From the NCBI GenBank assembly GCA_036250195.1, contig JAVHZZ010000005.1:69251505-69315504 (forward strand): a stretch of DNA of 64,000 bases. Direction: 5' to 3'. The first letter of the stretch is position 1; each line of letters starts with the position of its first letter. This stretch comes from Mixophyes australis (taxonomy: Eukaryota > Chordata > Amphibia > Anura > Limnodynastidae). Shown piece by piece: positions 2,455 through 39,600 of the stretch. The translations under genes and the position numbers were made by a program. Under the pieces are notes generated by a model, which searched no databases, was not told where the DNA came from, and was given only the letters and a program-made list of their open reading frames with translations.

Positions 2455-2925
2455 GGCCTGGGTGCCACCACCACAGCCACATTACAACCCCCCCCAGACA
2501 CATCCTACCCCCACAGGCACACCATAAGTCCCCCAGACACATAATAAGTCCCCCCAGACACATAATAAGCCCCCCCAGTAGACACATCATAAGCCCCCAC
2601 AGCAGACACATCATAACACCCCCCACAACCCCAGCCCAGCTCACTTACCTAACTTGAGCCAGAACTCCTCCTCCTTGTCCTCTCTGCTGCTGGGACAGTG
2701 TGTGATGTCACACGCTGTTCAGGGACTGGAAGCTGTTGACTCCTGTCAGCTCGCTCGCTCCCTCCCCCTTAACATTACCCACACATCCAATCCGCAATTG
2801 CGAGCTAGCGCCACCTGCTGGTGATTTTTTTCTTTTTATAAAAATTACGAGACTGCCGGGCCCGGGCCCCCCAAGCAGTCCGGGCCCCGGTAATTTGTAC
2901 CTGCTCCCCCCCTCTTGGCACCCCG
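2455..2925 (-). mobile_element. Minisatellite-bearing hAT-like element, inverted copy
   Basis: Read on the minus strand this starts with a GC-rich segment (GAGCAGGTACAAATTACC followed by runs of GGGCCCGG) that matches the beginning of the element at 36324 (GCGGGTACATTTTACCC, then GGGCCCGG runs). A unique domain follows with a small palindrome around TGATGTCA at about 2695-2720, then GTAAGT (plus-strand ACTTAC at 2643-2648), then at once a tandem array of about 22-bp units. The order of parts is the same as in the copies at 23677 and 36324. I do not see a clear target duplication, so the ends are approximate. Confidence 0.6.
2480..2640 (-). repeat. Short G-rich minisatellite, about 22-bp unit
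   Basis: Six to seven imperfect copies of a unit that reads GGGGGCTTATGATGTGTCT on the minus strand, with 5 to 8 G per unit. It starts directly after the GTAAGT motif of the host element. A minus-strand open frame through it (2393-2644) is an artefact of the repeat. Confidence 0.8.
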
Positions 2926-17495: not shown

Positions 17496-17945
17496 CAGGG
17501 CTGGATTAACAATGGCCCTGATGGGGTTACAGCCCCAGGCCTCTCCACAGAAATAGCCCAAAACCAGCCAGGAGTAAAAAAAAAAAAAATTCTAGTAATG
17601 ACACCTGGCATTGGGAGGGTGGCAGGGGACAGTCCTGTCATTGGAAAGCAACAGGCAGTGAATCACGAGACTGCCTGTTGCTGAGTGGGGTGGGGGCTAC
17701 ATCTACAGAAGCTATGTGTGACTCGTGCTGTGTGACTCATGCTGTACCAACTTCCACCCAATCCCAGACAGAGGTCAGTGGCATTCAACACAACAGGTAG
17801 GAACAATTTATTTTTAACAGGGGATATATGACAACAGGGGATATGTGACATCAGGCCCAACAGGCGATATGTGACAAGAGGGGATATGTGAAAACAGACC
17901 CAACAAGGGATATGTGAAAATATAATATGCATGTGTCAATGTGTT
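17496..17945 (+). mobile_element. Minisatellite-bearing hAT-like element, 5' part
   Basis: Begins CAGGGCTGGATTAA, the same kind of end as the element at 23677-29386 (CAGAGCTGGATTAA on its far side). A unique domain of about 300 bp leads to AACAGGTAGGAAC at about 17793-17804, a donor-like motif, and then directly to a short array of GGGGATATGTGACAACAGG-type units up to about 17925. The same structure is found at 22423. The 3' end is missing; a Tc1 fragment follows. Confidence 0.7.
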
Positions 17946-22422: not shown

Positions 22423-22960
22423 CAGGGCTGGATTAACAATGGGCCTGATAGGGCTGCAGCCCCCGGCCTCTCCACAGAAATAAGCCCAGGCCAGCCAAGA
22501 GGTAAAAACATTTTTTTATTTTTTTTTGGGAGGGCACCTGGCACAGGGAGGGGGGTTTGGGGCAATGAGCGGGGTGATGATGCGGATCTGGTTGCCAGGG
22601 GGTGGTCCTGTCGTTAGAGAGCAACAGCCAATCACAGCCTGTTGTTGAGTGGGGTGGGGGCTGCGCCTACAGAGGCTGTATGTGATTTGTGCTGTGCGAT
22701 TCGTGCTGTACCAACTTTCACCCAGTACCAGTCGGAGTTCAGTGGCTTTCAACAAAACAGGTAGGAACAATTTCATTTTATAGGGGATATGTGACAACAG
22801 GCCCAACAGGGCATATGTGTCAACAGGGGATATGTGACTACAAGCCCAACAGGGGATATGTGACAACAGGAGATATGTGGCAATAGAGGATATGTGACAA
22901 CAGGCCCAACAGGGAATATGTAAATATTTAAAAATATAATATGCATGTGTGAATGGCCCG
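22423..22960 (+). mobile_element. Minisatellite-bearing hAT-like element, second copy of this subgroup
   Basis: Close relative of the element at 17496. It begins CAGGGCTGGATTAACAATGG, carries the same unique domain, the same AACAGGTAGGAAC donor-like motif (GTAGGA at 22761-22766), and then an array of GGGGATATGTGACAACAGG units with AGGCCCAAC spacers to about 22920. Both copies stop after ATAATATGCATGTGT. Confidence 0.75.
22783..22925 (+). repeat. Minisatellite, about 26-bp unit
   Basis: Imperfect units built from GGGGATATGTGACAACAGG and CCCAACA, about five to six copies. The homologous array at 17819-17925 has fewer. Confidence 0.8.
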
Positions 22961-23236
22961 TGTGTATTATCATAGAGATCAGTACCTTTTCTTACAACTT
23001 TTTCAATGGAGATTATACACCGGTGCCAGTGACAGGTAACTGTGTTTGACAATTTGAAGTCTGCTCAGATGTATGAATACTTGAAGAAAGAATATTTATA
23101 TATAACAAATTTTATACATTCCCCTTTGGCCATTTGAGGTGTCAGGAGGTATAAAAATAACCAACAGCTGATAATCACATTCTCACACATTAACTGTACA
23201 GTATGTATAAAAATCATATTTTGCTCCCTGTATTGG

Positions 23237-23366
23237 GTGGCGTCCTCATGGCTGCCCTCTGTATTGTGTGGCTGTAACAAGGGTGCTATGTATTGTATGG
23301 TGGTCACAAAGGTGCTATGTATTGTGTTGCGGTCACAAGGGTGCTGTGTATTGTGTGGTGATCACT
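23237..23366 (+). repeat. Tandem repeat, about 29-bp unit
   Basis: Four imperfect copies of a unit containing GCTATGTATTGTATGG and GGTCACAA, followed by an AT microsatellite. Confidence 0.75.
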
Positions 23367-23370
23367 ATAT

Positions 23371-23372
<2 letters not shown>

Positions 23373-23405
<33 letters not shown>

Positions 23406-23432
23406 GAGATCAATATAGATACATTTAATAGT

Positions 23433-23481
<49 letters not shown>
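23373..23481. repeat. Two AT dinucleotide microsatellites
   Basis: (AT)n at 23373-23402 and 23440-23481, separated by a short unique piece belonging to the repeat copy that starts near 23405. Confidence 0.95.
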
Positions 23482-23483
<2 letters not shown>

Positions 23484-23676
23484 TACATAGATTCAAGTTT
23501 TATTGTTGTATTTATTTTTCTTAAGTTCTCAGCACCTTGTACTTTGTTCAATGTTAAAAACCTGAAAATGAGTACTTTTTATGTATATTTATTGTTAAAG
23601 CACTTTAGAAGTAAAAATAATCAACCATTGTTTGTATTTTTGTCTTCAATGATCAATAAAATAACATACCTTTACC
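23405..23676 (+). repeat. Interspersed repeat, copy 2, left part
   Basis: Left part of the repeat also seen at 19395-20465. It is cut at ATAACATACCTTTACC by the 5.7-kb element and resumes at 29387. It lacks the L1 insert of copy 1. Confidence 0.75.
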
Positions 23677-23708
23677 CATATCCGGATTAAGGGGGGGGGC
23701 ACAGGAGG

Positions 23709-23819
23709 CCCCCACCGCCATTAAGGAAAAAAAAAAAAATCAGTAGAGGTTATGCGCGCGGCATAACCTCTACTGATTTTTTTTTGATTTTTTTTTTCCT
23801 TAATGGTGGCGGCGGGCCA
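23709..23819. repeat. Foldback (inverted repeat) inside the 5.7-kb element
   Basis: The arms carry CCGCCATTAAGGAAA plus an A-run and ATCAGTAGAGGTTATGC, and meet at a GCGCG centre. The right arm has a small T-run length difference. A stem of about 50 bp can form. Confidence 0.9.
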
Positions 23820-24072
23820 TCGGAGAGAGGGGGAGGGTTGCGGTCAGGTTCGGGGCTCCCTGCGTAGGTGGGGGGAGCAGGATAGTGAAAAAAAATAAAA
23901 AATAGATACTACTCACCTCATCGCAGCGCTGGCGTCCCTCCTCTCTGCACTGTTACCACTGAATGACAGGCGTGACGTCATCAAGTCACGCCTGTCATTC
24001 AGTGAGGAGCAGCGCGGAGAGGACCAGGAAAGAAACAGGAGGACAGAAGAGAAGAAAGAAGCTACAAGAAAG

Positions 24073-24078
24073 GTAAGT
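24073..24078 (+). promoter_or_regulatory. Splice-donor-like GTAAGT before the minisatellite
   Basis: AAAG followed by GTAAGT, with the first minisatellite unit starting within about 10-25 bases. The same motif sits at 36719-36724 and, inverted, at 2643-2648. Whether it is used for splicing is not known. Confidence 0.55.
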
Positions 24079-24083
24079 AAAAA

Positions 24084-27000
24084 AAAAGGGAATAACGAAG
24101 AAAGGGACACTATGTAGGAAAAAGGGGGAGAAGAAAGGGACACTATGTAGGAAAAAGGGGGAGAAGAAAGGGACACTATGTAGGAAAAAGGGGGAGAAGA
24201 AAGGGACACTATGTAGGAAAAAGGGGGAGAAGAAAGGGACACTATGTAGCAAAAAGGGGTGAAGAAAGGGACACTATGGAGGAAAAAGGGGGAGAAGAAA
24301 GGGACACTATGTAGGAAAAAGGGGGAGAAGAAAGGGACACTATGTAGGAAAAAGGGGGAGAAGAAAGGGACACTATGTAGGAAAAAGGGGGAGAAGAAAG
24401 GGACACTATGTAGAAAAAAGGGTGAGAAGAAAGGGACACTATGTAGCAAAAAGGGGGAGAAGAAAGGGCCAGTATGGAGGAAAAAGGGGGAGAAGAAAGG
24501 GACACTATGTAGGAAAAAGGGGGAGAAGAAAGGGACACTATGTAGGAAAAAGGGGGAGAAGAAAGGGACACTATGTAGGAAAAAGGGGGAGAAGGGACAC
24601 TATGTAGGAAAAAGGGGGAGAAGAAAGGGACACTATGTAGGAAAAAGGGGGAGAAGAAAGGGACACTATGTAGGAAAAAGGGGGAGAAGAAAGGGACACT
24701 ATGTAGGAAAAAGGGGGAGAAGAAAGGGGCACTATGTAGGAAAAAGGGGGAGAAGAAAGGGACATTATGTAGCAAAAAGGGGGAGAAGAAAGGGCCAGTA
24801 TGGAGGAAAAAGGGGTAGAAGAAAGGGACACTATGTAGCAAAAAGGGGGAGAAGGGACACTATGTAGCAAAAAGGGAGACAAGAAAGGGACAGTATGGAG
24901 GAAAAAGGGGGACAAGAAAGGGACACTATGTAGGAAAAAGGGGGAGAAGAAAGTGACACTATGTAGGAAAAAGGGGGAGAAAAAAAGGGACACTATGTAG
25001 GAAAAAGGGGGACAAGAAAGGGACACTATGTAGGAAAAAGGGGGAGAAGAAAGGGACACTATGTAAGAAAAAGGGGGAGAAGAAAGGGACACTATGTAGG
25101 AAAAAGGGGGATAAGGGACACTATGTAGGAAAAAGGGGGAGAAGAAAGGGACACTATGTAGGAAAAAGGGGGAGAAGAAAGGGACACTATGTAGGAAAAA
25201 GGGGGAGAAGAAAGGGACACTATGTAGGAAAAAGGGGGAGAAGAAAGGGACACTATGTAGGAAAAAGGGGGAGAAGAAAGGGACACTATGTAGGAAAAAG
25301 GGGGAGAAGAAAGGGACACTATGTAGGAAAAAGGGGGAGAAGAAAGGGACACTATGTAGGAAAAAGGGGGAGAAGAAAGGGCCAGTATGGAGGAAAAAGG
25401 GGGAGAAAGAAGGGACACTATGTAGGAAAAAGGGGGAGAAGAAAGGGACACTATGTAGGAAAAAGGGGGAGAAGAAAGGGACACTATGTAGGAAAAAGGG
25501 GAAGAAGAAAGGGACACTATGGAGGAAAAAGGGGGAGAAGAAAGGGACACTATGTAGGAAAAAGGGGGAGAAGAAAGGGACACTATGTAGGAAAAAGGGG
25601 GAGAAGAAAGGGACACTATGTAGGAAAAAGGGGGAGAAGAAAGGGACACTATGTAGCAAAAAGGGGGAGAAGGGACACTATGTAGGAAAAAAAGGAGAAG
25701 AAAGGCACACTATGTAGGAAAAAAGGAAAAGAAAGGCACACTATGTAGGAAAAAGGGGGAGAATAAAGGGACACTATGTAGGAAAAAAGGAGAAGAAAGG
25801 GACACTATGTAGGAAAAAGGGGGAGAATAAAGGGACACTATGTAGGAAAAAGGGGGAGAAGAAAGGGACACTATGTAGGAAAAAGGGGGAGAAGAAAGGA
25901 ACACTATGTAGGAAAAGGGGAGAAGAAAGGGACACTATGTAGGAAAAAGGGGGAGAAGAAAGGGACAGTATGGAGGAAAAAGGGGGAGAAGAAAGGGACA
26001 CTATGTAGGAAAAAGGGGGAGAAGAGAGGCACACTATGGAGGAAAAAGGGGAAGAGAGGCACAGTAAGGAAAAAGGGGGAGAAGAGAGGCACAGTAAGGA
26101 AAAAAGGGGGAGAGTAGAGGCACAGTAAGAAAAAAGTGGGAGAAGAGAAGCACAGTAAGGAAAAAAGGGGGAGAAGAGAAGCACAGTAAGGAAAAAAGGG
26201 GGAGAAGAGAAGCACAGTAAGGTCAAAGGGGGGAGAAGAGAGGCACAGTAAGGAAAAAAGGGGGAGAAGAAAGGGACACTATGTAGGAAAAAGGGGGAGA
26301 AGAAAGGGACACTATGTAGGAAAAAGGGGGAGAAGAAAGGGACACTATGTAGGAAAAAGGGGGAGAAGAAAGGGACACTATGTAGAAAAAAGGGTGAGAA
26401 GAAAGGGACACTATGTAGCAAAAAGGGGGAGAAGAAAGGGCCAGTATGGAGGAAAAAGGGGGAGAAGAAAGGGACACTATGTAGGAAAAAGGGGGAGAAG
26501 AAAGGGACACTATGTAGGAAAAAGGGGGAGAAGAAAGGGACACTATGTAGGAAAAAGGGGGAGAAGGGACACTATGTAGGAAAAAGGGGGAGAAGAAAGG
26601 GACACTATGTAGGAAAAAGGGGGAGAAGAAAGGGACACTATGTAGGAAAAAGGGGGAGAAGAAAGGGACACTATGTAGGAAAAAGGGGGAGAAGAAAGGG
26701 GCACTATGTAGGAAAAAGGGGGAGAAGAAAGGGACATTATGTAGCAAAAAGGGGGAGAAGAAAGGGCCAGTATGGAGGAAAAAGGGGTAGAAGAAAGGGA
26801 CACTATGTAGCAAAAAGGGGGAGAAGGGACACTATGTAGCAAAAAGGGAGACAAGAAAGGGACAGTATGGAGGAAAAAGGGGGACAAGAAAGGGACACTA
26901 TGTAGGAAAAAGGGGGAGAAGAAAGTGACACTATGTAGGAAAAAGGGGGAGAAAAAAAGGGACACTATGTAGGAAAAAGGGGGACAAGAAAGGGACACTA

Positions 27001-28409
27001 TGTAGGAAAAAGGGGGAGAAGAAAGGGACACTATGTAAGAAAAAGGGGGAGAAGAAAGGGACACTATGTAGGAAAAAGGGGGATAAGGGACACTATGTAG
27101 GAAAAAGGGGGAGAAGAAAGGGACACTATGTAGGAAAAAGGGGGAGAAGAAAGGGACACTATGTAGGAAAAAGGGGGAGAAGAAAGGGACACTATGTAGG
27201 AAAAAGGGGGAGAAGAAAGGGACACTATGTAGGAAAAAGGGGGAGAAGAAAGGGACACTATGTAGGAAAAAGGGGGAGAAGAAAGGGACACTATGTAGGA
27301 AAAAGGGGGAGAAGAAAGGGACACTATGTAGGAAAAAGGGGGAGAAGAAAGGGACACTATGTAGGAAAAAGGGGGAGAAGAAAGGGACACTATGTAGGAA
27401 AAAGGGGGAGAAGAAAGGGACACTATGTAGGAAAAAGGGGGAGAAGAAAGGGACACTATGTAGGAAAAAGGGGGAGAAGGGCCAGTATGGAGGAAAAAGG
27501 GGGAGAAAGAAGGGACACTATGTAGGAAAAAGGGGGAGAAGAAAGGGACACTATGTAGGAAAAAGGGGGAGAAGAAAGGGACACTATGTAGGAAAAAGGG
27601 GAAGAAGAAAGGGACACTATGGAGGAAAAAGGGGGAGAAGAAAGGGACACTATGTAGGAAAAAGGGGGAGAAGAAAGGGACACTATGTAGGAAAAAGGGG
27701 GAGAAGAAAGGGACACTATGTAGGAAAAAGGGGGAGAAGAAAGGGACACTATGTAGCAAAAAGGGGGAGAAGGGACACTATGTAGGAAAAAAGGAGAAGA
27801 AAGGCACACTATGTAGGAAAAAAGGAAAAGAAAGGCACACTATGTAGGAAAAAGGGGGAGAATAAAGGGACACTATGTAGGAAAAAAGGAGAAGAAAGGG
27901 ACACTATGTAGGAAAAAGGGGGAGAATAAAGGGACACTATGTAGGAAAAAGGGGGAGAAGAAAGGGACACTATGTAGGAAAAAGGGGGAGAAGAAAGGAA
28001 CACTATGTAGGAAAAGGGGAGAAGAAAGGGACACTATGTAGGAAAAAGGGGGAGAAGAAAGGGACAGTATGGAGGAAAAAGGGGGAGAAGAAAGGGACAC
28101 TATGTAGGAAAAAGGGGGAGAAGAGAGGCACACTATGGAGGAAAAAGGGGAAGAGAGGCACAGTAAGGAAAAAGGGGGAGAAGAGAGGCACAGTAAGGAA
28201 AAAAGGGGGAGAGTAGAGGCACAGTAAGAAAAAAGTGGGAGAAGAGAAGCACAGTAAGGAAAAAAGGGGGAGAAGAGAAGCACAGTAAGGAAAAAAGGGG
28301 GAGAAGAGAAGCACAGTAAGGTCAAAAGGGGGAGAAGAGAGGCACAGTAAGGAAAAAAGGGGGAGAAGAGAGGCACAGTAAGGAAAAAGGGGGAGAAGAG
28401 AGGCACAAT
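24084..28409 (+). repeat. 4.3-kb minisatellite, 33-bp unit, with a 2-kb higher-order duplication
   Basis: About 130 unit lengths of a 33-bp unit (AGGAAAAAGGGGGAGAAGAA, then AGGGACACTATGT). Variant units mark position: GGCCAGTATGG, TAGCAAAA, AGGGGTAGAAG, GATAAGGG and GGCACAGTAAGG types. The order of variants from about 24282 to 26266 is repeated from about 26254 to 28366 with an offset of 1972 bp, changing to 2100 bp after about 25120/27092. This shows a block duplication followed by gain of four units in the second block. Because 33 is a multiple of three and the unit lacks stops in several frames, long frames up to 362 codons occur on both strands. They encode only 11-residue repeats and are not genes. 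Confidence 0.97.
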
Positions 28410-28410
28410 A

Positions 28411-28890
28411 GTGGGAACAATTAATTAATTTAAGATGGGGTGGTTTGGGCGCTACTGAATGTGGGGGTAAGTTTGGGGAGAATGAGGTCCCTTTATTAAA
28501 ATGTGCCTATGAATTATTTAATGGTAGTGACGGTTGCGGGAAATAGGTATATTTCTGAAATGTAAATACTATTAATTTATTGCTGGGGCTGTTTGTAGGG
28601 AGGGAAATAGGTTTATTTATTAAATGTGAATACTATTATTTTAATGTTGGGGCTGGAGGAAGGCCTAATTATTAATCATGGGTGGTACTGATTTAACACC
28701 GGGGGTGGCTGTAATTTTCTAAATGTACCCATTTTTTTTCCCCAAGTAGGGCCCCTAACATTCCAGGATCCAGACAAGTCGCAACTAAAGAAACCTGCAG
28801 CACAGGTGGTGAAAGTGAGAAGAACAGGTAGGAGAGAGCAGCAAAGTCTGTGAAATGTTGTGATTCTAGTGGGACAATCCCAATTTTTGG
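28411..28890 (+). repeat. 3' domain of the minisatellite element family
   Basis: Matches 37616-38050 closely (TTAAGATGGGGTGGTTTGGG, then AAATAGGTTTATTTATTAAA, then ATTCCAGGATCC). It contains an acceptor-like tract (T-rich run, then CCCCAAGTAGGG near 28735-28750), a GATCC-containing exon-like stretch and AACAGGTAGGAG at about 28823-28834. Confidence 0.8.
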
Positions 28891-28959
28891 TGACCGTTCA
28901 ATGGTGTACACAACAATGCAGGTTTTTTTGTCTGTAGGAGGGTGGACTGGCCATGCCCA

Positions 28960-29205
28960 ATGATGCATTATCAATGGTATTTTAATTTGCGGTATCATTG
29001 CTAGTTTTAATGTGCATTATAAATTTTATTTTTAAAGTTCGGTATCATTGCTAGTTTTAGCGTGTGGTATCATTGCTAGTTTTAGTGTACGTTATCAATG
29101 GTATTTTTAATGTATGATATCATTGCTAGTTTTAATGTGTGGTGTCAATACCCATTTTAATGTGGTGTTTTGATGATTGTTTTAATGTACAGTATTTTAG
29201 TTTGT
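28960..29205 (+). repeat. Tandem repeat, about 30-bp unit
   Basis: Six to eight imperfect copies of GGTATCATTGCTAGTTTTAA with variable spacers, in the right part of the 5.7-kb element. It also follows a GTAGGAG motif, at some distance. Confidence 0.8.
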
Positions 29206-29386
29206 GGAAGCAATGATTTTTGTTATGCAGACAACCTAAGCGAGCCCTCTGGGAGAGCTGTAAGTGTCATACTGTGGGCTGTAGGTGATGTAATGCAGGA
29301 TGTGTCACTATGCTCTTAATTTTAGATCTCTAGGGGCCCCCCTGTCTTAAGTGCCCCGGGCCCCCCGAAGCCTTAATCCAGCTCTG

Positions 29387-29760
29387 CTTTTACCTTTCAA
29401 CTGTTCCGATTCCATCAGAATAGTCCTGATTTTAGGGGTCTATCCTGATCAGTCAGGAGCTTGTCCCAACATGAGGGACAGCTGGGACGTTTCCATTCTT
29501 CACTTTACATACATATTGTGTGGACTAGTTAGTGGTGCACTGTTTATAAAAGGGAAGATGGAAGGGAGATGTAGGTGGTTGGAGGGAAGTGCAAGCTATG
29601 CCCTCCATAGTAATGGTCATGCCCACACACAGCTGGCCACACCCACACATCACTGACCACACCTCTGGTGGAAGGGCACTTCTCACAACAGGTCCTTTAT
29701 AATTTTCAGACCCATGTGGCCCTTAATCTGTTAGTGGAGAGAAGGAGAGGGATAGGGAGG
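29387..29760 (+). repeat. Interspersed repeat, copy 2, right part
   Basis: Continues the repeat of 23405-23676 after the 5.7-kb insertion. It matches 20105-20465 (CAACTGTTCCGATTCCATCA, AGGGACAGCTGGGA, GTGCAAGCTATGCCCTCCAT). Confidence 0.75.
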
Positions 29761-29769
29761 GAGGGAGAG

Positions 29770-30465
29770 AGTATAAGGCATTCACAGGTCTTCTTCTGTG
29801 AGTGCAAGCAGTACAAACAAGTTGCATACATTAACTTTGCTTCACCCATACAGTTTATTGTTCTTTCTATAAAGGTTGGCATTAGATTCTGTTAACTTTT
29901 ATTTTGTCAATCTTTTAACATTGTTATTAGCTAGAGTTTTCTATTAGTCCCATATACTTCAAATTTTCCTTCTGATGATATAAGTGCTTGCACACCAGTA
30001 TAACAAGCCCTAAAAGGTTTAGGAAAATTTAATTTAGCATTGATTACTACTATGATACTGCGTATCTTTTCCAAGAACAAGAAAGCTAGGGCAATGATGT
30101 ACAGTGATGAAGGTGACTATCACCAGCACTCTTTAGCTGCTCCTGACTGGCTGATTGCATTGCCATGGCAATATTTGTATTACCTAATTGAAATTTCCAT
30201 TTGATTTACTGCAGGAAAGAAGATTTCCATTGGACAGACGTGAAGGTGTTTTACTTAATTATATTTTATACTGGAAATGTGACTTTCACATTTATTAATA
30301 ACTGTGAAGGCACTATTCTCTCTTCTGTATATGAAACTTCATTAAATTGTTGTGTTGTGTATAAATAGGGTAATACAACTTTAGAATTTACAACTACTAG
30401 ACTTAAATTAATTTAACATAGACAAAAACAGTAATTTATCATTAACAAATGTATTACAATGGCTC
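29770..30465. other. Intergenic DNA 3' of EFHB, nothing recognised
   Basis: No gene or repeat recognised downstream of the EFHB polyadenylation signal. Confidence 0.4.
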
Positions 30466-30470
30466 ATCAG

Positions 30471-30476
30471 TTTATT
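30471..30476 (-). promoter_or_regulatory. EFHB: Candidate EFHB polyadenylation signal AATAAA
   Basis: AATAAA on the minus strand, starting 27 bases after the EFHB stop codon. If used, the 3' untranslated region is very short. Further AATAAA-like sites exist within a few hundred bases. Confidence 0.5.
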
Positions 30477-30503
30477 TTCAATTTAAGTGAATGACATTTC
30501 AAT

Positions 30504-30671
30504 TCAAGAAAGTAAATCTACATTGGAGTTTGCCTGCATATCATCAAGCAGATTTCTTATTGTTTCAAGAGAAACTTCTCCTTTTGGATGGATCTTTGAA
30601 GCCATGCGCCACAGTTCTTCAAAAGTGTTATCTGGAATATTAACACCAGTATTGCGTAGTATCTTTGTAAT
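30504..30671 (-). CDS. EFHB: EFHB last coding exon
   Basis: Acceptor TTTTTTAG precedes ATTACAAAG; the exon starts in phase 0. It encodes 55 residues beginning ITKILRNTGVNIPD, with the block FEELWRMASKIHPKGEVSLE, and ends at TGA (30504-30506). It continues directly from the phase-0 end of the exon at 39449. This is a degenerate EF-hand-like helix pair without metal ligands. Confidence 0.92.
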   Translation of the reverse strand: MTKILRNTGVNIPDNTFEELWRMASKIHPKGEVSLETIRNLLDDMQANSNVDLLS

Positions 30672-33600
30672 CTAAAAAATAAGATAATTTTTCACATGCT
30701 TTAATATTTAAAATATTTCTGGAGACTTCCTATATATAACTGGGCTGTATTTATAATTCACATTGGGCCAGTGTCTTTAGTTTATTGAAGAATAAGACAA
30801 ATATGAATGCCATACCCAAAGGCCCATACATGGCTTCTTAGATTGAGAGCAGAGAGAGTATCATAAGTAAGTGTATCATATTTCGGTTTCTTCAACTCGC
30901 GGGAGTTCGGCGAGATGACAGCTAAAATTTAAAGCGGCGCTGCCTTGTAAAGGGAAACTTGCCTTTACAAGGCCGCGCCGCTTTAAATTTTAGCTGTCAT
31001 CTCGCCGAACTCCCGCGAGTTGAAGAAACCTGAGTATGATACATTTACCCCCGGATCTATGTACAATTTAGCTACAAATATCTGGATTCTATAGGGCCCA
31101 AGTATTATTTGCTCACGGTCTGCCTTTTACTCCACTCCTGATTAACATCTATTCAACCAACTATTGATTGGGGTGGCCGGGCACTCTGTATTCACATATT
31201 GGCCACTTTGTTTAAAAAATACTATAATGATCCTCTGACTCTCTACATGTATGTATTTTTAGTTTACCAAAGCAAATTTTATATTGTTTGTTTGACAAAT
31301 GGAGCTTTCCTTTGGTAGCAAGTTCAGAATACATTTTTTTGTAAAAGATGGTAGATCTCTGTGTACACGTAAAGATATTAAAAAGAGTATGGTTTTAAGT
31401 GCTAGAATAAGCAAATGTGCACCTTGGCCAAACCATGCTGTGCTGCAGGGAAGAATGTTTAAAAGGTGTGGGCAGATTAGGAGTTGGAAGGGGGGCACGC
31501 AATAGTTTATTAATAGAGGAAATCACTGTGATGTCAATGAAAGGTGATACTTGTGGGATACAATATACAATATCAATACACCTGATGTGGTTTGGAATTT
31601 GCCAATTGCTAAATCTGCCAGTAGCAGTGACAATCATGGGGTAAATGTATTAAACTGTGAATTTTGATGATATTCGGCCACTTTGCATGGGAGATTTAAA
31701 ATGGCAATGTCTTTAAAGGCAAAACTTGCCGTTATAGACATACGGGCAGCACGGTGGCTTAGTGGTTAGCACTTTTACCTCACAGCACTAGGGTCATGGG
31801 TTCAATTCCCGACCATGGTCTTATCTGTGTGTAGTTTATATGTTCTCCCCGTGTTTGCGTGGGTTTCCTCCGGGTGCTCCGGTTTCGTCACTCCAAAAAC
31901 ATACTAGTAGGTTAATTGGCTGCAATTAAAATGCCTTTAGTCTCTCTGTCTGTGTGTGTGTATGATTGGGGATTTAGATTGTAAGCTCCAATGGGGCAGG
32001 GACTGATGTGAATGAGTTCTCTGTACAGCACTGCAGAATTAGTGGCGCTATATAAATAAATAGATGATGATGTAAGATATTGCCATTTTAAATGTCCCCT
32101 GCAAAGTCACCAAATATCGGCGACTTGCAAAATCTGCAGTTTAATACACTTACCCCCTGGACTGCTTGTGTATGGTGTCTCTCAAGCAATTTAGTTAGGA
32201 AACCTACACGCAAGGAAACTCTCTTATATTTAGTTCTCACAAATCAAGGCATTATGTCCAGGGGAGAAAACATAAGTTCTAGTTACCATTAGAGATGCTC
32301 AGGCTCGGTTCCACGGAAAACGAACACACCCGAACTTAGGGAATCCGAGTACCAAGCCGAGTCAGCTCGGTACTGTTGCGCTTTTTCGGATTCGAAAATC
32401 AGGCAAAACGTCATTGTGACGTCGTCGGATCTCGGGAGTTTTGGAATCTATAAATACAGCCCTCCACGGCGATCTAGTGCCATTTGAGGGAGGGATACAG
32501 AAGGGGTAGCATAGAGTGTAGAGCAGTTGGGCAGGCAAAGTTAGAGAATTGAAAGAGGAGGGTGGTAGCAGTGTTAAACAAAGTAATCAGTGACATTCAG
32601 GAGAGCTCCATAGCTCCAGTGTTAAATCTCATTGCAGAAGCAGACCAAGAAGAAGACTACTAGTAGTTTACAACAATTGACTGTTAAACAATCCTTTGCA
32701 AGAGGCAGTAAGTATGAAAGCTGTCACCCAGTCGCAAAGCGGATCACAGGCGCCATGGCGACTATGCTCGTATTAGATCTGCGTCCAATATCCACTATTA
32801 ATGCAGTTGGTTTTAGACAGTTACTTGAGATCTTATGTTCTCGTTACCAAATTCCATCATGACACCATTTCAGTAGAAAAGCTATTCCTCACCTCTACCA
32901 GAAGGTTCGTAAAAATGTTATTATTGAGCTGTAAAATGCCATTTTACCCACTGTACACTTAACCACAGATATGTGGACAAGCGAAACTGAGCAAACTAAA
33001 GATTATATGACTGTGACAGCCCACTGAGTTGTCGATTCACCTTCACCAGCAGGAACAGCAGCAGCATGTATCTAAGTACGTCACATTTGTCAGAGGCAGG
33101 CTACTCTGTGTATAACCGGCTTAACTAAGAGGCATACAGCTGACAATCTGTTACAAAAACGAAGGGATGTCATTGCAACATGGCTTATCCCGCTTGGACT
33201 CTCCTCAGGATATGTAATTTCTGATAGGCCACCAATATTGTCAGAGCATTACAGCTGGGTGAATTCCATCACATTCCCTGTTTTGCTCACACAATAAACT
33301 TGGTGGTGCAGAGCTTTTTAAAAAATGACAGGGACGTGCAGGAGATGCTGTCTGTGGCCCGTAAAATATCTGGACATTTCCGGCATTCGGCAACAGCATT
33401 TAGGAGATTGCAGCAGCTACAAGAGCAATTTAATGTGCCTTGCCACCAACTGTAGCAAGAGATGGTGACAAGCTGGAATTCCACCCTGTATATGCTTCTG
33501 AGGATGGAGGAACAGCAAAAAGCCATCCACGCTTACTCCACAAGCCATGACATTTGGAAAGGAGGGGGGATGTATTTTAGTCAAGTGTAGTGGAGAATAT

Positions 33601-36600
33601 TTTCCGTGTTGTGCAAGGTGCTGAAACCATTCAAAGTAGTCACCTTTAAAGTGAGTTCAGGCATTACTGGCTTGAGCCAAGTGATTCCCTTAATTAGACT
33701 TTTGGAAAAGCAGCTTGGGAAACTGAAGGAGGAGATGAAACAAAGCCATTCCGCTAATTATGTTGGACTTGTAGATTAAGTACTTTATTCACTTCGCCAG
33801 GATCAGAGAGTTATCAAAATCTTGAAATTAGGATCACTACATTTTGGCGACTGTGCTTGATCCTCGGTTTAAGACCTATGTCTTCCTTTTTATCCAACTG
33901 ACCCAGATCTGAAAAGATGCAAGGAGCTCCTGGTGAGCAAGATGACAGCTCAAGTGTAACTTGACAGGGCGGCGTCTCCTCCTTCAGTTTCTCACTCAAC
34001 TACTGCTAGGAAAAACCTTCGCTTTCCCAAGACACCCAGAAATGATGCAGATGACTCTGCACCAAATTTTGACATCTGGTCTAAAAGAATTGACAAAAAA
34101 ATGCGACAACTCTGCCGTAACTCCACCTGAAGTAGGCAAAAAAAAAACAGAATCTGCAGAGCTTTCTTGTTAAAATCTTCAACAAGGAAGGGGTACTAGG
34201 CCTCAATTTGTTCAGGAGACACATCAAGGCCCCTCAACTAAGTCACATAAACTCAAGTCATTCAAGTCCTGAAACAGAAAAATCGGTCCGTTCTTGAGAG
34301 AGGACCACCTGGACTCCCTTCCCCCGGCTCCTGAACAAACTTAGGCCAGCCTCAGCCTAAGAAATCCTGAGTATCAAGCTTACGCTCAAAATCTGGGATG
34401 ATATCAATGTGTAATTTAAAGTATCAACATGCCCCTCACACCTTACTCCACTCTGATGTCACCCAATGTTCCCAAAGTTTTTTCTCCATTTTCTCAAAGT
34501 AGACATTAAACATTTTAGAAGAATTTGCCTCATTTACCTTGTGGACTTACAAGAGCAATACGGATTTGTGCAAACTACCTTTTCTCCAAATTTTCTTATT
34601 AAAAACTTTGTTCAAACACAGATGAAAACATCTAAATTAAGACAGCTAACTCAGTTTGAGCATAGCTGTACTCGATAAATTATAAATGTATGATTTCTAT
34701 AGTTTACAATTTGGTTCTATGCCCAGAACTTCAGTTAACTGAACCACATAAAACCCTTTGGGAAAGAGACTTAAACATCACAGTAGATGGAAAAGACTGG
34801 GATTGCATCAGACAAAGAGCAGTTAAAGTATTAATTTTTGTGGTACTAAAAGAAAATGCTTTCAAAATATATACCAGATATTACTTTTCAGGCTCCACAA
34901 TATGTACCCCCAAACTTTGCTGGAGAAACCATGGGGACATTAGGATATGTATGTATATCTGGTGGAATTATTTTCTAATAGCTCAGTTTTGAAGTATGAT
35001 GATTAACTTAATCAAATAAGAAATGTTTAGATATCAGCTGAACCATTAATCTTACTTCTCAATAGGTGTTATGGCTGGTGGTACTGGCATGAACTCCCAG
35101 AACAGATAGAAGAGGTCTTCATCTTTAGCAACCGTCTTTCCCGTAGTGCTAGATACGCTCACAGGTACTTGGATGCCCCCAGGTCTTAAACTCAGCACAG
35201 AGGGAGCTTGTGTACAGAAACAGTAGCTTAATAGTTGGGAGAAGATACTAAAGTTCAGGAGACAAAACGGAATCAGGCAACCAACTGTGATCCGGTAAAC
35301 AGACAGAGGTCAGGGCAACAGGCCAACGAGCAGAATATGGTAAACAGACAGAGGTCAGGGCAAGAGGCAAATGAGCAGAATCCGATAAACAGGCAAGGGT
35401 CACAACAGGTATCAATCAGAATAACATGCATATCCACAAGGAGCAGGTCAACAAGTGAGGTAACAGAATCTATAACTGGCAGGGAGGCTAAGCCCTCCCT
35501 TCCTTATATACTTAGAAAGGCCAATCAGAAACAGGATGGTACAGCAGTAGTAGTCAGCCTCAGGAGGCTGTTAATTAATTTTGCTACTTTGCGCACACGC
35601 CCGGCTGTCCCTTAAGCCGAGACGTGTGTCTTAGCAACAGGACATCGCGGCCGTTGCCTTGGCGATGGCCGGGGGAATTAGGAAGTGACATCTCGGTAGT
35701 CATGTAGACGGCCGGGACGTGGCCTGGCTCCAACATGGAGTCGCGGCAGCTTGAGCCACGTAACAATAGGTTGGTGAAATCACTTAGCAAACATCTAGAT
35801 AAGCTCAATACTCATATAAATAATGTGAGAATACTCTTCATAGTGAGGTAATGGAAGAAACAAGCCCCCCAATATAGGAAGCCTTAATGAACTGAATGTG
35901 GATTGTCTCCTCAATGGAGTACTTCTCTGGTGTGCTTTATAATAGTGGATTTGCCTTTCACAATGTGTAGAGCCATTGGAACCAGTACAATAACTTCTTT
36001 CCCCCCCTGGAACGTCAAAATTAATCTAAATCCACCAACACTACCTTTACCTTTCATCACTTACATCCCCTTCCCTGCTAAGTCCCCTTTCCTCCTTTGT
36101 GCCATTTCTTTTTATACATCAAAAATTATCAGCTTCCACAACTACTAAACATTATATGGTTACATATCTATCTAGTCTCTCATCATTTGTTAGACTCCAG
36201 GTGCTGTATTAACATTGTGTCTGTATGATAAAGTGTTTGTTTATACTTGATTGGCATTTTCCATAATAGATGAAAAAGAAATTAAGTCAACAGGTCCAGA
36301 TAGTATACAAATCCATGAATACTCAGGGCCGCTGAGAGGAGGGGGGAGCGGGTACATTTTACCCGGGCCCAGGCTTGCCAGGGGGCCCGGGCCGGGCCCT
36401 CGGTTCTAATTTTGAATTTTTCTTTGTTTTTTTTTATCTTGCGTCTTTTTTAGGTATTTATTTATTTTTTCCGCGGTGGGGAGGAGGGGGTTGCGGTTCA
36501 TTGGTGGGGGGAGCTGGAACAATAAAACAAAAAAAAAATACTCACGTGACCGCGGCGCCGCGTCCCTCCTCTCCTCTTCTCTATTCACACTGACTGTCGG

Positions 36601-39600
36601 GCGTGACGTCATAAAGTCACGCCCGTCAGTCAGTGAGGAGCGCCGGACAAGACAGAACAAGAAGAAAGAAGAGAAGACAGAAGAGAAGAGAAGAGAAAAA
36701 GAAAGAAGCTGACAGGAGGTAAGTAAAGAAACGGAGAGGCATGGGGAAGAAAGGGGCAGTGCTATAAAGAAGGGGGAGTAAAAAAACGGGGGAGAGAGGC
36801 TGAGAATAAATAAAAAAGGGGAGAGAAACAATAAATAAAAAAGGGGAGAGAAACAATAAATAAAAAAGTGGAGAGAAACAGAATAAATAAAAAAAGTAGA
36901 GAGAAACATAGAATAAATAAAAAAGGGGAGAGAAAAAATAAATAAAAAAGTGGAGAGAAACAGAATAAATAAAAAAGGGGAGAGAAACATAGAATAAATA
37001 AAAAAGGGGAGAGAAACAATAAATAAAAAAGGGGAGAGAAACAGAATAAATAAAAAAGGGGAGAGAAGCACAGAATAAATAAAAAAGGGGAGAGAAACAT
37101 AGAATAAATAAAAAAGTGGAGAGAAGCACAAAATAAATAAAAAAGGGGAGAGAAACAGTATAAATAAAAAGGGGAGAGAAGCACAGAGTTAAAATAAAAA
37201 GGGAGAGAAACAGAATAAATAAAAAAGTGGAGAGAAGCACAGAATAAATAAAAAAGGGGAGAGAAACATAGAATAAATAAAAAAGTGGAGAGAAGCACAA
37301 AATAAATAAAAAAGGGGAGAGAAACAGTATAAATAAAAAGGGGAGAGAAGCACAGAGTTAAAATAAAAAGGGGAGAGAAACAGAATAAATAAAAAAGTGG
37401 AGAGAAGCACAGAATAAATAAAAAAGGGGAGAGAAACATAGAATAAATAAAAAAGTGGAGAGAAGCACAAAATAAATAAAAAAGGGGAGAGAAACAGTAT
37501 AAATAAAAAGGGGAGAGAAGCACAGAGTTAAAATAAAAAGGGAGAGAAACAGAATAAATAAAAAAGGGGAGAGAAGCACAGAGTTAAAAAAAAAAAAGGG
37601 GAGAGGCACATTTAATAGTGGGGACTATTAATTTAAGATGGGGTGGTTTGGGGGCTATTGAATATGGGGGTGAGTTTAGGGAGAATGAGGTATATTTATT
37701 AAATGTGACTATGAATTTATTAATGGCAGTGATGGTTGTGGGAAATAGGTATTGGTAGGCTGTTTGCAGGAAGGGAAATAGGTTTATTTATTAAATGTGA
37801 ATACTATTATTTTAATGTTGGGGCTAGAGGAAGGCCTAATTATTAATCGTGGGTGCTATTGATTTAACGCCGGGGCTGGCTGTAATTTTCTAAATGTAGC
37901 CATTTTTTTTCCCAAATAGGTCCTCCAACATTTCAGGATCCGGACAAGCCGCAACTAAAGAAAGCAGCAGTCACAGGTGGTGAAAGTGAGAAGAACAGGT
38001 AGGAGAGAGCAGCAAAGTGTGTGAAATGTTGTGATTCTAGTAGGGACAATGGCAATTTTTGGTGAGTGTCGTGCCCAATGTAAGGTGCAGGCCAAGACTG
38101 AACTTTGTGTACACACTGCATTCTTTGTACACTACACTGTGGTGCTAGATGTCTTAAAAGTCAGGAGTGCTGGGACATATGTGACGCTCTGGTGAATTCA
38201 GGACCTAGTGATTTTGATGTGCTAGCCACGCCCCAACAGCACATTTCCGCGCCCCAAATGTATGACCACACCCCTAAAATATTTTGCATCGACGTTAGGC
38301 TAGCCACTCCCCAACGGCGCATTGCCACGCCCCTGAATGTATGACCACACCCTTGAATTTTTTTGCGCCGCCTTAGGGCTTACTCAACTATAAGGGGGGC
38401 CCCATGAATTTGTTGTACCCAGGCCCTGAATTCCTCCTGGCAGCCGTGTGAATACTACTGGTATTTTTAACCAATTGCTTACAGCTATAATTTCAGGTGA
38501 CTGGAGAATGGCAAATGTAGTTTCACTAAACAAAAAAGGCAGTAGGGAAAAATATGATTACAATATACTTGTGAGTCTCACAGGGAAATTAATGAAATAA
38601 ATAATTGTTAACTATTTAGAGTCAAACAAGAGGTATGAATTTACTGCTGGGAGATCACATATTAAACAAATTAAATGTTTTTTGTATGTTTTGTTTTTTG
38701 CTTAAACAAAATTTGTAAACAAAGTGTTGAATCAGGGTGTATCAAAAGTTATAGCTTATTTCAATTTTAGCAATGTATTTGAAACCACAGAAGGGGTACA
38801 AAAATGCATGGTGATTTATAGAAGAGATAGATGAATGGAATAAAGTATGTAATCTAATGATCACAAAAATCCAAAAGCAAACTATAGACAACAACATCAG
38901 AGGCAAGGGATGTTGGGAGTATTCATTACAGGTGGTAAGAAGGTAAGAACTAGTGTAATCATGCAGTGGGAGAAGCCAGTATAATATTTGCTTGCATATA
39001 AAGATACAATATATTAGTAACTGAAATAAAACAACACAACAAAGCAAAGAATAAACACATAACAAAATAGTAGACAAGACAGATCTGTAGGTTCGAGGGT
39101 CTAAGGTTTCAGCAAGTTTTCTACCTTCAAATTCTTCAAGTTTCTTTATGTTTCTATTATGAGGCCCAGTATAAACTATATCTATTAGTACTGCACTAGA
39201 CCTTGCTTTACAAGTACTAAAGGTGAAGTAATTGGCAGACATTTAGGGACATATTTATCAAAGGGTGTAAAGCCCTAAATTATTAAATTAAAACATTAAA
39301 ATATTGAAACATTAATTAATTCTGAATGTCACATCACTTTTGATAAAACTACTACTCTACTACTGATTATAGAAACAAAAACATAATTTACATGACATTA
39401 TCATACTATCAAAATGTTTAAAACCTCATTTATTATTTTGTGTATTACCTCTTCCTTTGGACGTGATTTGGAAATATCTCTTTTGTACACCATGTGTTGA
39501 GTAAATATGGATGGCCATAATAAAGCAAAGGCATTAGGCCCATCTCCATAAGTATTTCTGTCGCTGACTCTCTGAAAGCGAGGAGGGGCAATATCTGTTC

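Follow-up and report, generated by a model that had tools for sequence, protein, structure and literature searches.

Transposons that contain tandem repeats are known from flies, frogs and bacteria. Parts of Yang and Barbash 2008 (PMC2374699) outline how, in the Helitron-related DINE-1 elements of Drosophila, non-homologous tandem repeats occupy an internal site between conserved blocks; more than 80% of copies are TT-flanked, and the unit changes between species. Two elements, here called E4 and E5, resemble this arrangement in having tandem repeats at one internal site between conserved blocks; they lie in a 64-kb stretch of the genome of the frog Mixophyes australis (the window, G000:C5:69251505-69315504; genome 3.13 Gb). 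Five window loci, labelled E1 to E5, have the same make-up, in which a GC-rich end and a unique 5' domain are followed by a donor-like GTAAGT or GTAGGA, and this in turn by a tandem array; the original prediction was right that all these components are present. It also knew of no described family that behaves in this way, yet the DINE-1 habit, to the extent that PMC2374699 sets it out, is similar. Unlike DINE-1, E4 and E5 are of hAT type with an 8-bp target-site duplication (TSD), a single genome contains several of their unit classes, and some of the intermediates between these units are traceable. Their arrays are probably best explained as an inherited minisatellite that diversified by descent within one non-autonomous hAT-type group.

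Xmix, a Xenopus miniature inverted-repeat transposable element (MITE) with Xstir repeats, was reportedly described by Hikosaka and Kawahara in 2004, and the miDNA4 MITE of Xenopus tropicalis is said to have been described by Scalvenzi and Pollet in 2014. In excerpts of PMC9659126 and PMC12628747, the tandem repeats of Xmix are lineage-specific and may come from internal sequence, and one review table gives the terminal inverted repeat (TIR) as the source region; it is like E4 and E5 in being a transposon with tandem repeats, a likeness of description only. The same excerpts present miDNA4 as a MITE whose internal satellite varies in copy number; unlike E4 and E5, it is of Tc1/mariner type and has one satellite motif, for which capture of a pre-existing repeat is proposed. 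Galileo, a DNA transposon of the P superfamily with tandem repeat expansion, differs in that its repeats are in the TIRs and, in D. willistoni, in a single copy (from a portion of PMC4168063). The BrickBuilt MITE of Porphyromonas gingivalis combines a leader, a minisatellite and a tail in one mobile element; it differs in being bacterial, in its 23-nt unit and in its 19 places in a genome (from a portion of PMC4596501). No paper on minisatellites inside frog hAT elements was found among the titles and abstract openings listed from an open-licence library. The kind of element is already known from DINE-1 and the Xenopus MITEs; E4 and E5 differ from these in being of hAT type, in how many unit classes one genome contains, and in having intermediates that can partly be traced.

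The E4 and E5 elements and their inherited array

E5 (36324..38448, plus strand, as are its features below other than the palindrome) is a non-autonomous hAT-type element, the sister of E4, and its boundaries are common to other copies. It is flanked by TGAATACT, identical at 8 of 8 positions (36316-36323 and 38449-38456), and its termini are CAGGGCCGCCGAGAGG and CCTCTTGGCAGCCCTG, with CAGGG..CCCTG ends. A pair of ends was located in 16 other copies (14 of 30 loci yielded none), and the TSD of these agrees at 8/8 positions in 12, 7/8 in three and 2/8 in one. Elements of the hAT superfamily end in short TIRs beginning CA(G)..(C)TG, and E5 is assigned to this type because of its 8-bp TSDs and its ends. 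Both E4 and E5 have the 8-bp TSD and short TIRs of hAT elements. DINE-1 and other Helitrons make no TSD, and Tc1/mariner elements such as miDNA4 duplicate TA; the 8-bp TSDs of E5 fit neither of these, nor do they fit TT-flanking. Both elements are MITE-like in being non-coding, in having TIRs and in their high copy number (5661 palindrome places), but they exceed the few hundred bp of MITEs: E5 copies measure 1387-1926 bp (n = 16), the window E5 measures 2.1 kb and the window E4 5.7 kb. No transposase-like frame is seen by eye among their short open frames (longest 117 aa), for which no domain scan was run.

Within E5, a palindrome (36588..36635) that includes TGACGTCA, which we take to be a CREB/ATF site, precedes a splice-donor-like AG followed by GTAAGTAA (36717..36726); the GTAAGT is exact in 27 of 30 copies. 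A leader of degenerate units (36722..36788), possibly including one like the type A unit of E4 (8 of 500 single-base shuffles reach its score), leads into the minisatellite of 25-, 27- and 29-bp units (36789..37605). An acceptor-like AG, a 79-nt exon-like block and a second donor-like site follow (37918..38000) and are homologous to those of E4. The distance from the donor to the 3' flank ranges from 146 to 1275 bp in 28 closed E5 arrays.

E4 (23677..29386, plus strand, likewise with its features other than the palindrome) is a non-autonomous hAT-type element with ends CATATCCGGATTAAGG and CCTTAATCCAGCTCTG. Its TSD, cctttacc on the left (23669..23676) and cttttacc on the right (29387-29394), is identical at 7 of 8 positions. 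The joined flanks align unbroken to copies of the E3 family, best to L040, L045, L047 and L058, an empty-site match by which E4 is nested in E3. Its palindrome (23957..24004, by eye), with 20-bp arms around gtcatcaa, again includes TGACGTCA, and its donor-like site, AG followed by GTAAGTAA (24071..24080), has a counterpart in all 20 further E4 copies. The minisatellite (24097..28407; 33 bp x 133) consists of type A and then type b units, and this A-then-b block occurs twice. Beyond it are an acceptor-like AG after a pyrimidine tract, a 78-nt exon-like block and a second donor-like site, CAG followed by GTAGGA (28748..28829), and then a second array of 25-bp units (28969..29195) that is present also in L004, L005 and L008. 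The first 78 bases of the window copy (23677-23754) are rearranged: they differ by 49% from the majority among seven other copies and include an inverted copy of neighbouring sequence.

The genome was searched with the 5' domain of four element types, and the sequence past the donor-like site was then read; besides the 5' domain, the E4 query took in only a few array bases and the E5 query the leader. Since only the best 40 places per query were scored, the family samples are biased toward close relatives. Of these 40, the fetched copies number 28 for E4, 30 for E5, 30 for E3 and 16 for E1 (12, 10, 10 and 24 unfetched), with the window's own copy counted for E4 (L001), E5 (L009) and E3 (L039). 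The family unit is kept in all 104 fetched copies (28/28, 30/30, 30/30 and 16/16), a constancy judged by eye for all of E1 and for E3 where TRF found too few copies. The mean difference between units within a locus is close to that between loci: 0.082 and 0.100 in E4 (8 loci), 0.152 and 0.165 in E5 (28 of 30 loci), and 0.28 and 0.297 in the E3 family (17 of 31 loci), with the two E5 and 14 E3-family loci of fewer than four units left out. Most unit variants are therefore common to loci. The edges of the E5 array are conserved as well. A GGCTGAG-type unit opens 24 of 30 arrays, occurs at no other position and is absent in six; in 24 of 28 closed arrays the next-to-last unit is of a GAGTTAA type, which in the other four is last (two arrays), third from last (one) or absent (one), and which also occurs further inside many arrays. 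Given the constant family units and the conserved E5 edge units, the array is passed on with the element instead of originating afresh in every copy. The original prediction of a repeat that is not inherited fails at this level, and the outcome it had itself named as refuting, one constant unit per family, is what the 104 copies display.

How the two units relate is seen in complete E4 arrays, all seven of which (window, L003-L006, L008 and L086) have A units first and a run of b last. No shuffle reaches the similarity between A and b (0 of 500 single-base, 0 of 1000 doublet), and that between b and the E5 unit is reached by 0 of 500 single-base and 5 of 1000 doublet shuffles. The 3' domains of E4 and E5 also align, from the end of the array through the acceptor-like tract and exon-like block up to and including the second donor-like site. 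Judged from these unit and domain comparisons, the E4 and E5 arrays appear likely to derive from one old array, linked through b units.

A blind sample was drawn by way of the palindrome, that is, from the 5' side. The motif GTGACGTCATNAAGTCACGC, with up to 2 mismatches, occurs at 2818 + 2843 = 5661 places genome-wide, of which a few might count on both strands because the motif is nearly palindromic; the reversed pattern occurs at 25. From at least 100 exact places listed, all on C1, the first 41 in order were taken, minus one already sampled (L002), which leaves 40; as exact matches, these tilt toward intact palindromes. An array lies past the donor-like region in 39 of the 40. In the remaining copy, L143, the leader is there but the stretch read contains no array; this copy is in the first flank-bin table and left out of the later one. 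A coarse sorter called 33 copies E5-like, four E4-like and three other, the E5-like majority arising because the units have a common GAGAGAGG.ACAG-like core. When grouped by the 7-mers they share, the 39 arrays form 12 clusters, with E4 a thirteenth, at an arbitrary cut that splits off L106 by a foreign insert and merges L107 with L119, and L125 with L126 and L137, despite differing units. There are thus roughly a dozen unit classes among the blind arrays, exemplified by AGGAAAAAGGGGAGAGAGGCACAGTA, GAGAGGCACAGAGGAGGAAAA and AAAAAAAGTGGGAGAGAGGAACAGAGGAGG.

These units follow their flanks. Arrays differ more where their flanks differ more: Mantel r is 0.65 among 78 copies and 0.50 among the 40 blind ones, and in both cases 0 of 999 permutations reach the value. 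Across the five main flank bins of the 39 blind arrays, the mean unit distance is 0.115, 0.208, 0.259, 0.270 and 0.291, and the mean flank distance is 0.020, 0.074, 0.127, 0.170 and 0.252 with gaps ignored or 0.041, 0.181, 0.215, 0.275 and 0.362 with gaps counted, set beside a distance of 0.36 for shuffled units. Because units follow flanks, it is likely that one inherited minisatellite diversified by descent, unit and flank together. The finding expected by the original prediction, many copies with the same flanks and different units, is present in part: nearly all blind copies have arrays, of many classes, but the units track the flanks. A unit clock faster than that of the flanks is not established, and the excess of unit over flank distance in the closest bin may be partly consensus noise.

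Arrays may also change length in place. In the window E4, a block of about 1.97 kb is tandemly duplicated on the plus strand (24301-26250 and 26273-28349), with 1948 of 1949 bases identical in three aligned blocks, and the second copy is longer by about 128 bases. The 5' part of this element (23755-24082) differs by 3.4% from the majority among seven other copies, for which the corresponding values are 2.2-5.6%. A block with one mismatch in a copy that is 3.4% diverged is much younger than the insertion, unless the assembly is in error, and points to growth of the array in place. In a separate, young BED-type hAT family (L145 1501-3421, L146 1240-2660, L147 662-2182), elements about 99% alike have 19.2, 14.2 and 15.2 copies of a 100-bp unit, which shows fast length change. 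That array ends about 10 bases before the transposase start codon. The transposase has a BED zinc finger and a hAT dimerisation domain (996 aa examined) in an open frame of 1009 codons from stop to stop, a length found at 25 of 150 scored places; the genome has 26085 first-look hAT-dimer candidates, of which these 150 were scored. A second array of about 100 bp units follows the transposase.

The E2/E3 and E1 families

The original prediction had treated the five loci as one group. Comparison of the 5' domains by profile (nhmmer) against the five window loci instead yields three unrelated families: E4 with E5 (hAT-type sisters; 3.7e-44), E2 with E3 (one family; 5.9e-91), and E1. The match between E1 and E5 (3.7e-9) is confined to 87 terminal bp, the best value between E3 and E4 is 0.005, and pairwise BLAST is consistent with this grouping (E2 and E3 are 69% identical over 491 bp). 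A single family of five is ruled out by these matches. The motif AGGTAAGTRA occurs three times in the window, once each in E1, E4 and E5 (shuffles: mean 0.37, at least three in 2 of 100), and these three loci have the order of palindrome, donor and array in common. The units of E1 and E3 are not similar to the others: doublet shuffles reach the score in 164 to 959 of 1000, and the smallest single-base value is 26 of 500 (E3 and E5). Within families, the E4 and E5 units are linked through the second E4 unit type, and the 17- and 26-bp spacings in E2 and E3 belong to a single compound unit. A layout common to three families with unrelated 5' domains and dissimilar units is confirmed.

E3 had been taken to stop at 22960. 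Its left part (22423..23676, plus strand) in fact extends to 23676, where it is broken by E4, and the element continues from 29395 to 29735 (plus strand; right end approximate, by eye). Its donor-like site is CAG followed by GTAGGA (GT at 22761), and on the plus strand it has a 17/26/43-bp array (22782-22921) and a second, 29-bp array (23260-23365). E2 (17496..17945, plus strand, as far as its ends were delimited) is an E3-family copy with an array at 17816-17917. E1 (2455..2925, minus strand, ends provisional), the third family, has a donor-like site at 2641-2650 and an array of about 20-bp units at 2467-2625.

In the E3 family the smallest arrays consist of one or two units and the largest of about 91 copies. 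Those of L051 and L059 are long and homogenised, and the commonest unit of L059 is found in 0 of 16 other loci. Four E3-family copies (L042, L043, L050 and L055) share the left flank tatatact within 235 kb (G000:C8:122160924-122395132), which suggests segmental duplication of one insertion. A stretch after the second 29-bp array of the family, seen in L067 (2352-2559, minus strand), presumably resembles a Tc1-type transposase fragment. Five E1 copies (L073, L075, L076, L078 and L084) have, by eye, a common nested palindromic insert, GAGGCGCTCAAAAACCCTTAAA .. TTTAAGGGTTTTTGAGCGCCTC, downstream of the array, with small differences. Elsewhere in the window, a long near-perfect palindrome around aactcgcgggagttcggcgagatgacagctaaaatttaaagcggcg (about 30886-31044, by eye) looks like a small palindromic element.

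Origin of the arrays and what they record

The following course of events would account for the E4/E5 group. Their ancestor probably already carried a purine- and G-rich minisatellite just past the donor-like AG-GTAAGT site, in what may be the first intron of a transposase gene that has since lost its coding part; the order of palindrome, donor, array, acceptor-like tract, exon-like block and second donor leads to this suggestion. Each transposition copies the array along with the element, as the constant units and conserved edge units show. Units would be gained, lost and homogenised by tandem duplication within the array, of which the E4 block is a recent instance if its assembly is right, and slippage, unequal exchange or gap repair may be the general process; repeats can be added or lost when the gap left by hAT excision is repaired. 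A variant that came to fill the array of a progenitor would become the unit of a subfamily, so that unit and flank diverge together. Type A, which lies at the donor side in an A-then-b array, would be the unit that E4 spread, and E5 would have spread a b-like one, while E2/E3 and E1 would be separate families with arrays of their own.

Several observations weigh against this account. The b-E5 link is modest, and direct similarity between A and E5 units is not significant (145 of 500 single-base and 435 of 1000 doublet shuffles reach the score), so that a direct homology bypassing the b bridge was rejected. The A-then-b order is a noisy tendency, since L003, L006 and 14 of 19 open arrays have b-like units interspersed with their A units, as scored by a two-way classifier that forces intermediates into A or b. 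Past about 15% flank distance, unit distance (0.27-0.33) is near the shuffled value, and because of this saturation the homology of the most distant units rests on intermediates. Unit distance exceeds flank distance in every bin if gaps are left out, but once they are counted the excess is clear only in the closest (0.115 against 0.041). The E4 block duplication may be an assembly error, and it is motifs that suggest the first-intron reading. No autonomous partner was found in the one hAT transposase family inspected, that of L145-L147, which has no convincing match to the E1, E3, E4 or E5 profiles.

Other explanations start from the layout rather than from the E4/E5 group. If a motif after the donor repeatedly nucleated unrelated minisatellites in individual copies, the same relative array position in three families with unrelated 5' domains and dissimilar units would follow, as would roughly a dozen unit classes after one flank; set against the family unit in every fetched copy, the conserved edge units and the tracking of flank distance by unit distance, this is very improbable, and at the level of copies it is largely refuted. 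It may be instead that families converged, the 5' non-coding part of hAT elements being a hot spot where arrays start and persist because of its transcription and its G-rich sense strand. GC skew favours R-loops, and such loops or G-rich structures would promote slippage and repair. Positive GC skew past the donor in 40/40 blind E4/E5-group copies, 16/16 E1 copies and 27/30 E3 copies fits this, as does a fourth hAT family (L145-L147), in which the transposase frame is open and an array precedes its start codon, and together they make transcription-linked instability possible. However, only three or four families have been seen, in one window and one transposase list; the skew counts are non-independent, as copies of a family share skew by descent; the skew evidence excludes the 100-bp array; hAT families without arrays are not in the comparison; and transcription is presumed. 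Convergence of this kind is thus conceivable and somewhat doubtful. Its fullest form, in which the G-skewed 5' non-coding part is a general minisatellite nursery and E1, E2/E3, E4/E5 and the 1009-codon family each grew a drifting array of their own that the transposon then spread, is a tentative and rather doubtful proposal.

Descent of all five loci from one array-bearing hAT ancestor, with arrays and 5' domains diverged beyond recognition, would explain the terminus of about 87 bp common to E1 and E5 and the palindrome (in E1, E4 and E5), donor and array in the same order, and it agrees with the decay of unit similarity to near the null. It is nevertheless unlikely, as there is no convincing 5'-domain similarity of E3 to E4/E5, or of E1 to E4/E5 outside the terminus, and the units are not similar above shuffles. 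That the arrays are artefacts of assembly, or inflated by misassembly, is scarcely credible: the nearly perfect E4 block copy is of the kind that such an error would leave, whereas arrays of differing lengths stand between intact flanks at many independent places, with TSDs in E5.

With inheritance and divergence by descent as the preferred explanation for E4/E5, the group offers about 5,600 palindrome copies and, among 39 arrays, roughly a dozen unit classes as replicate records of change in minisatellite unit, length and order. The transposon flanks provide a built-in reference clock for minisatellite turnover, against which slippage and unequal exchange, and change in place and change at transposition, become directly testable. 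Dispersed minisatellites can thus spread by way of a DNA transposon instead of originating on site.

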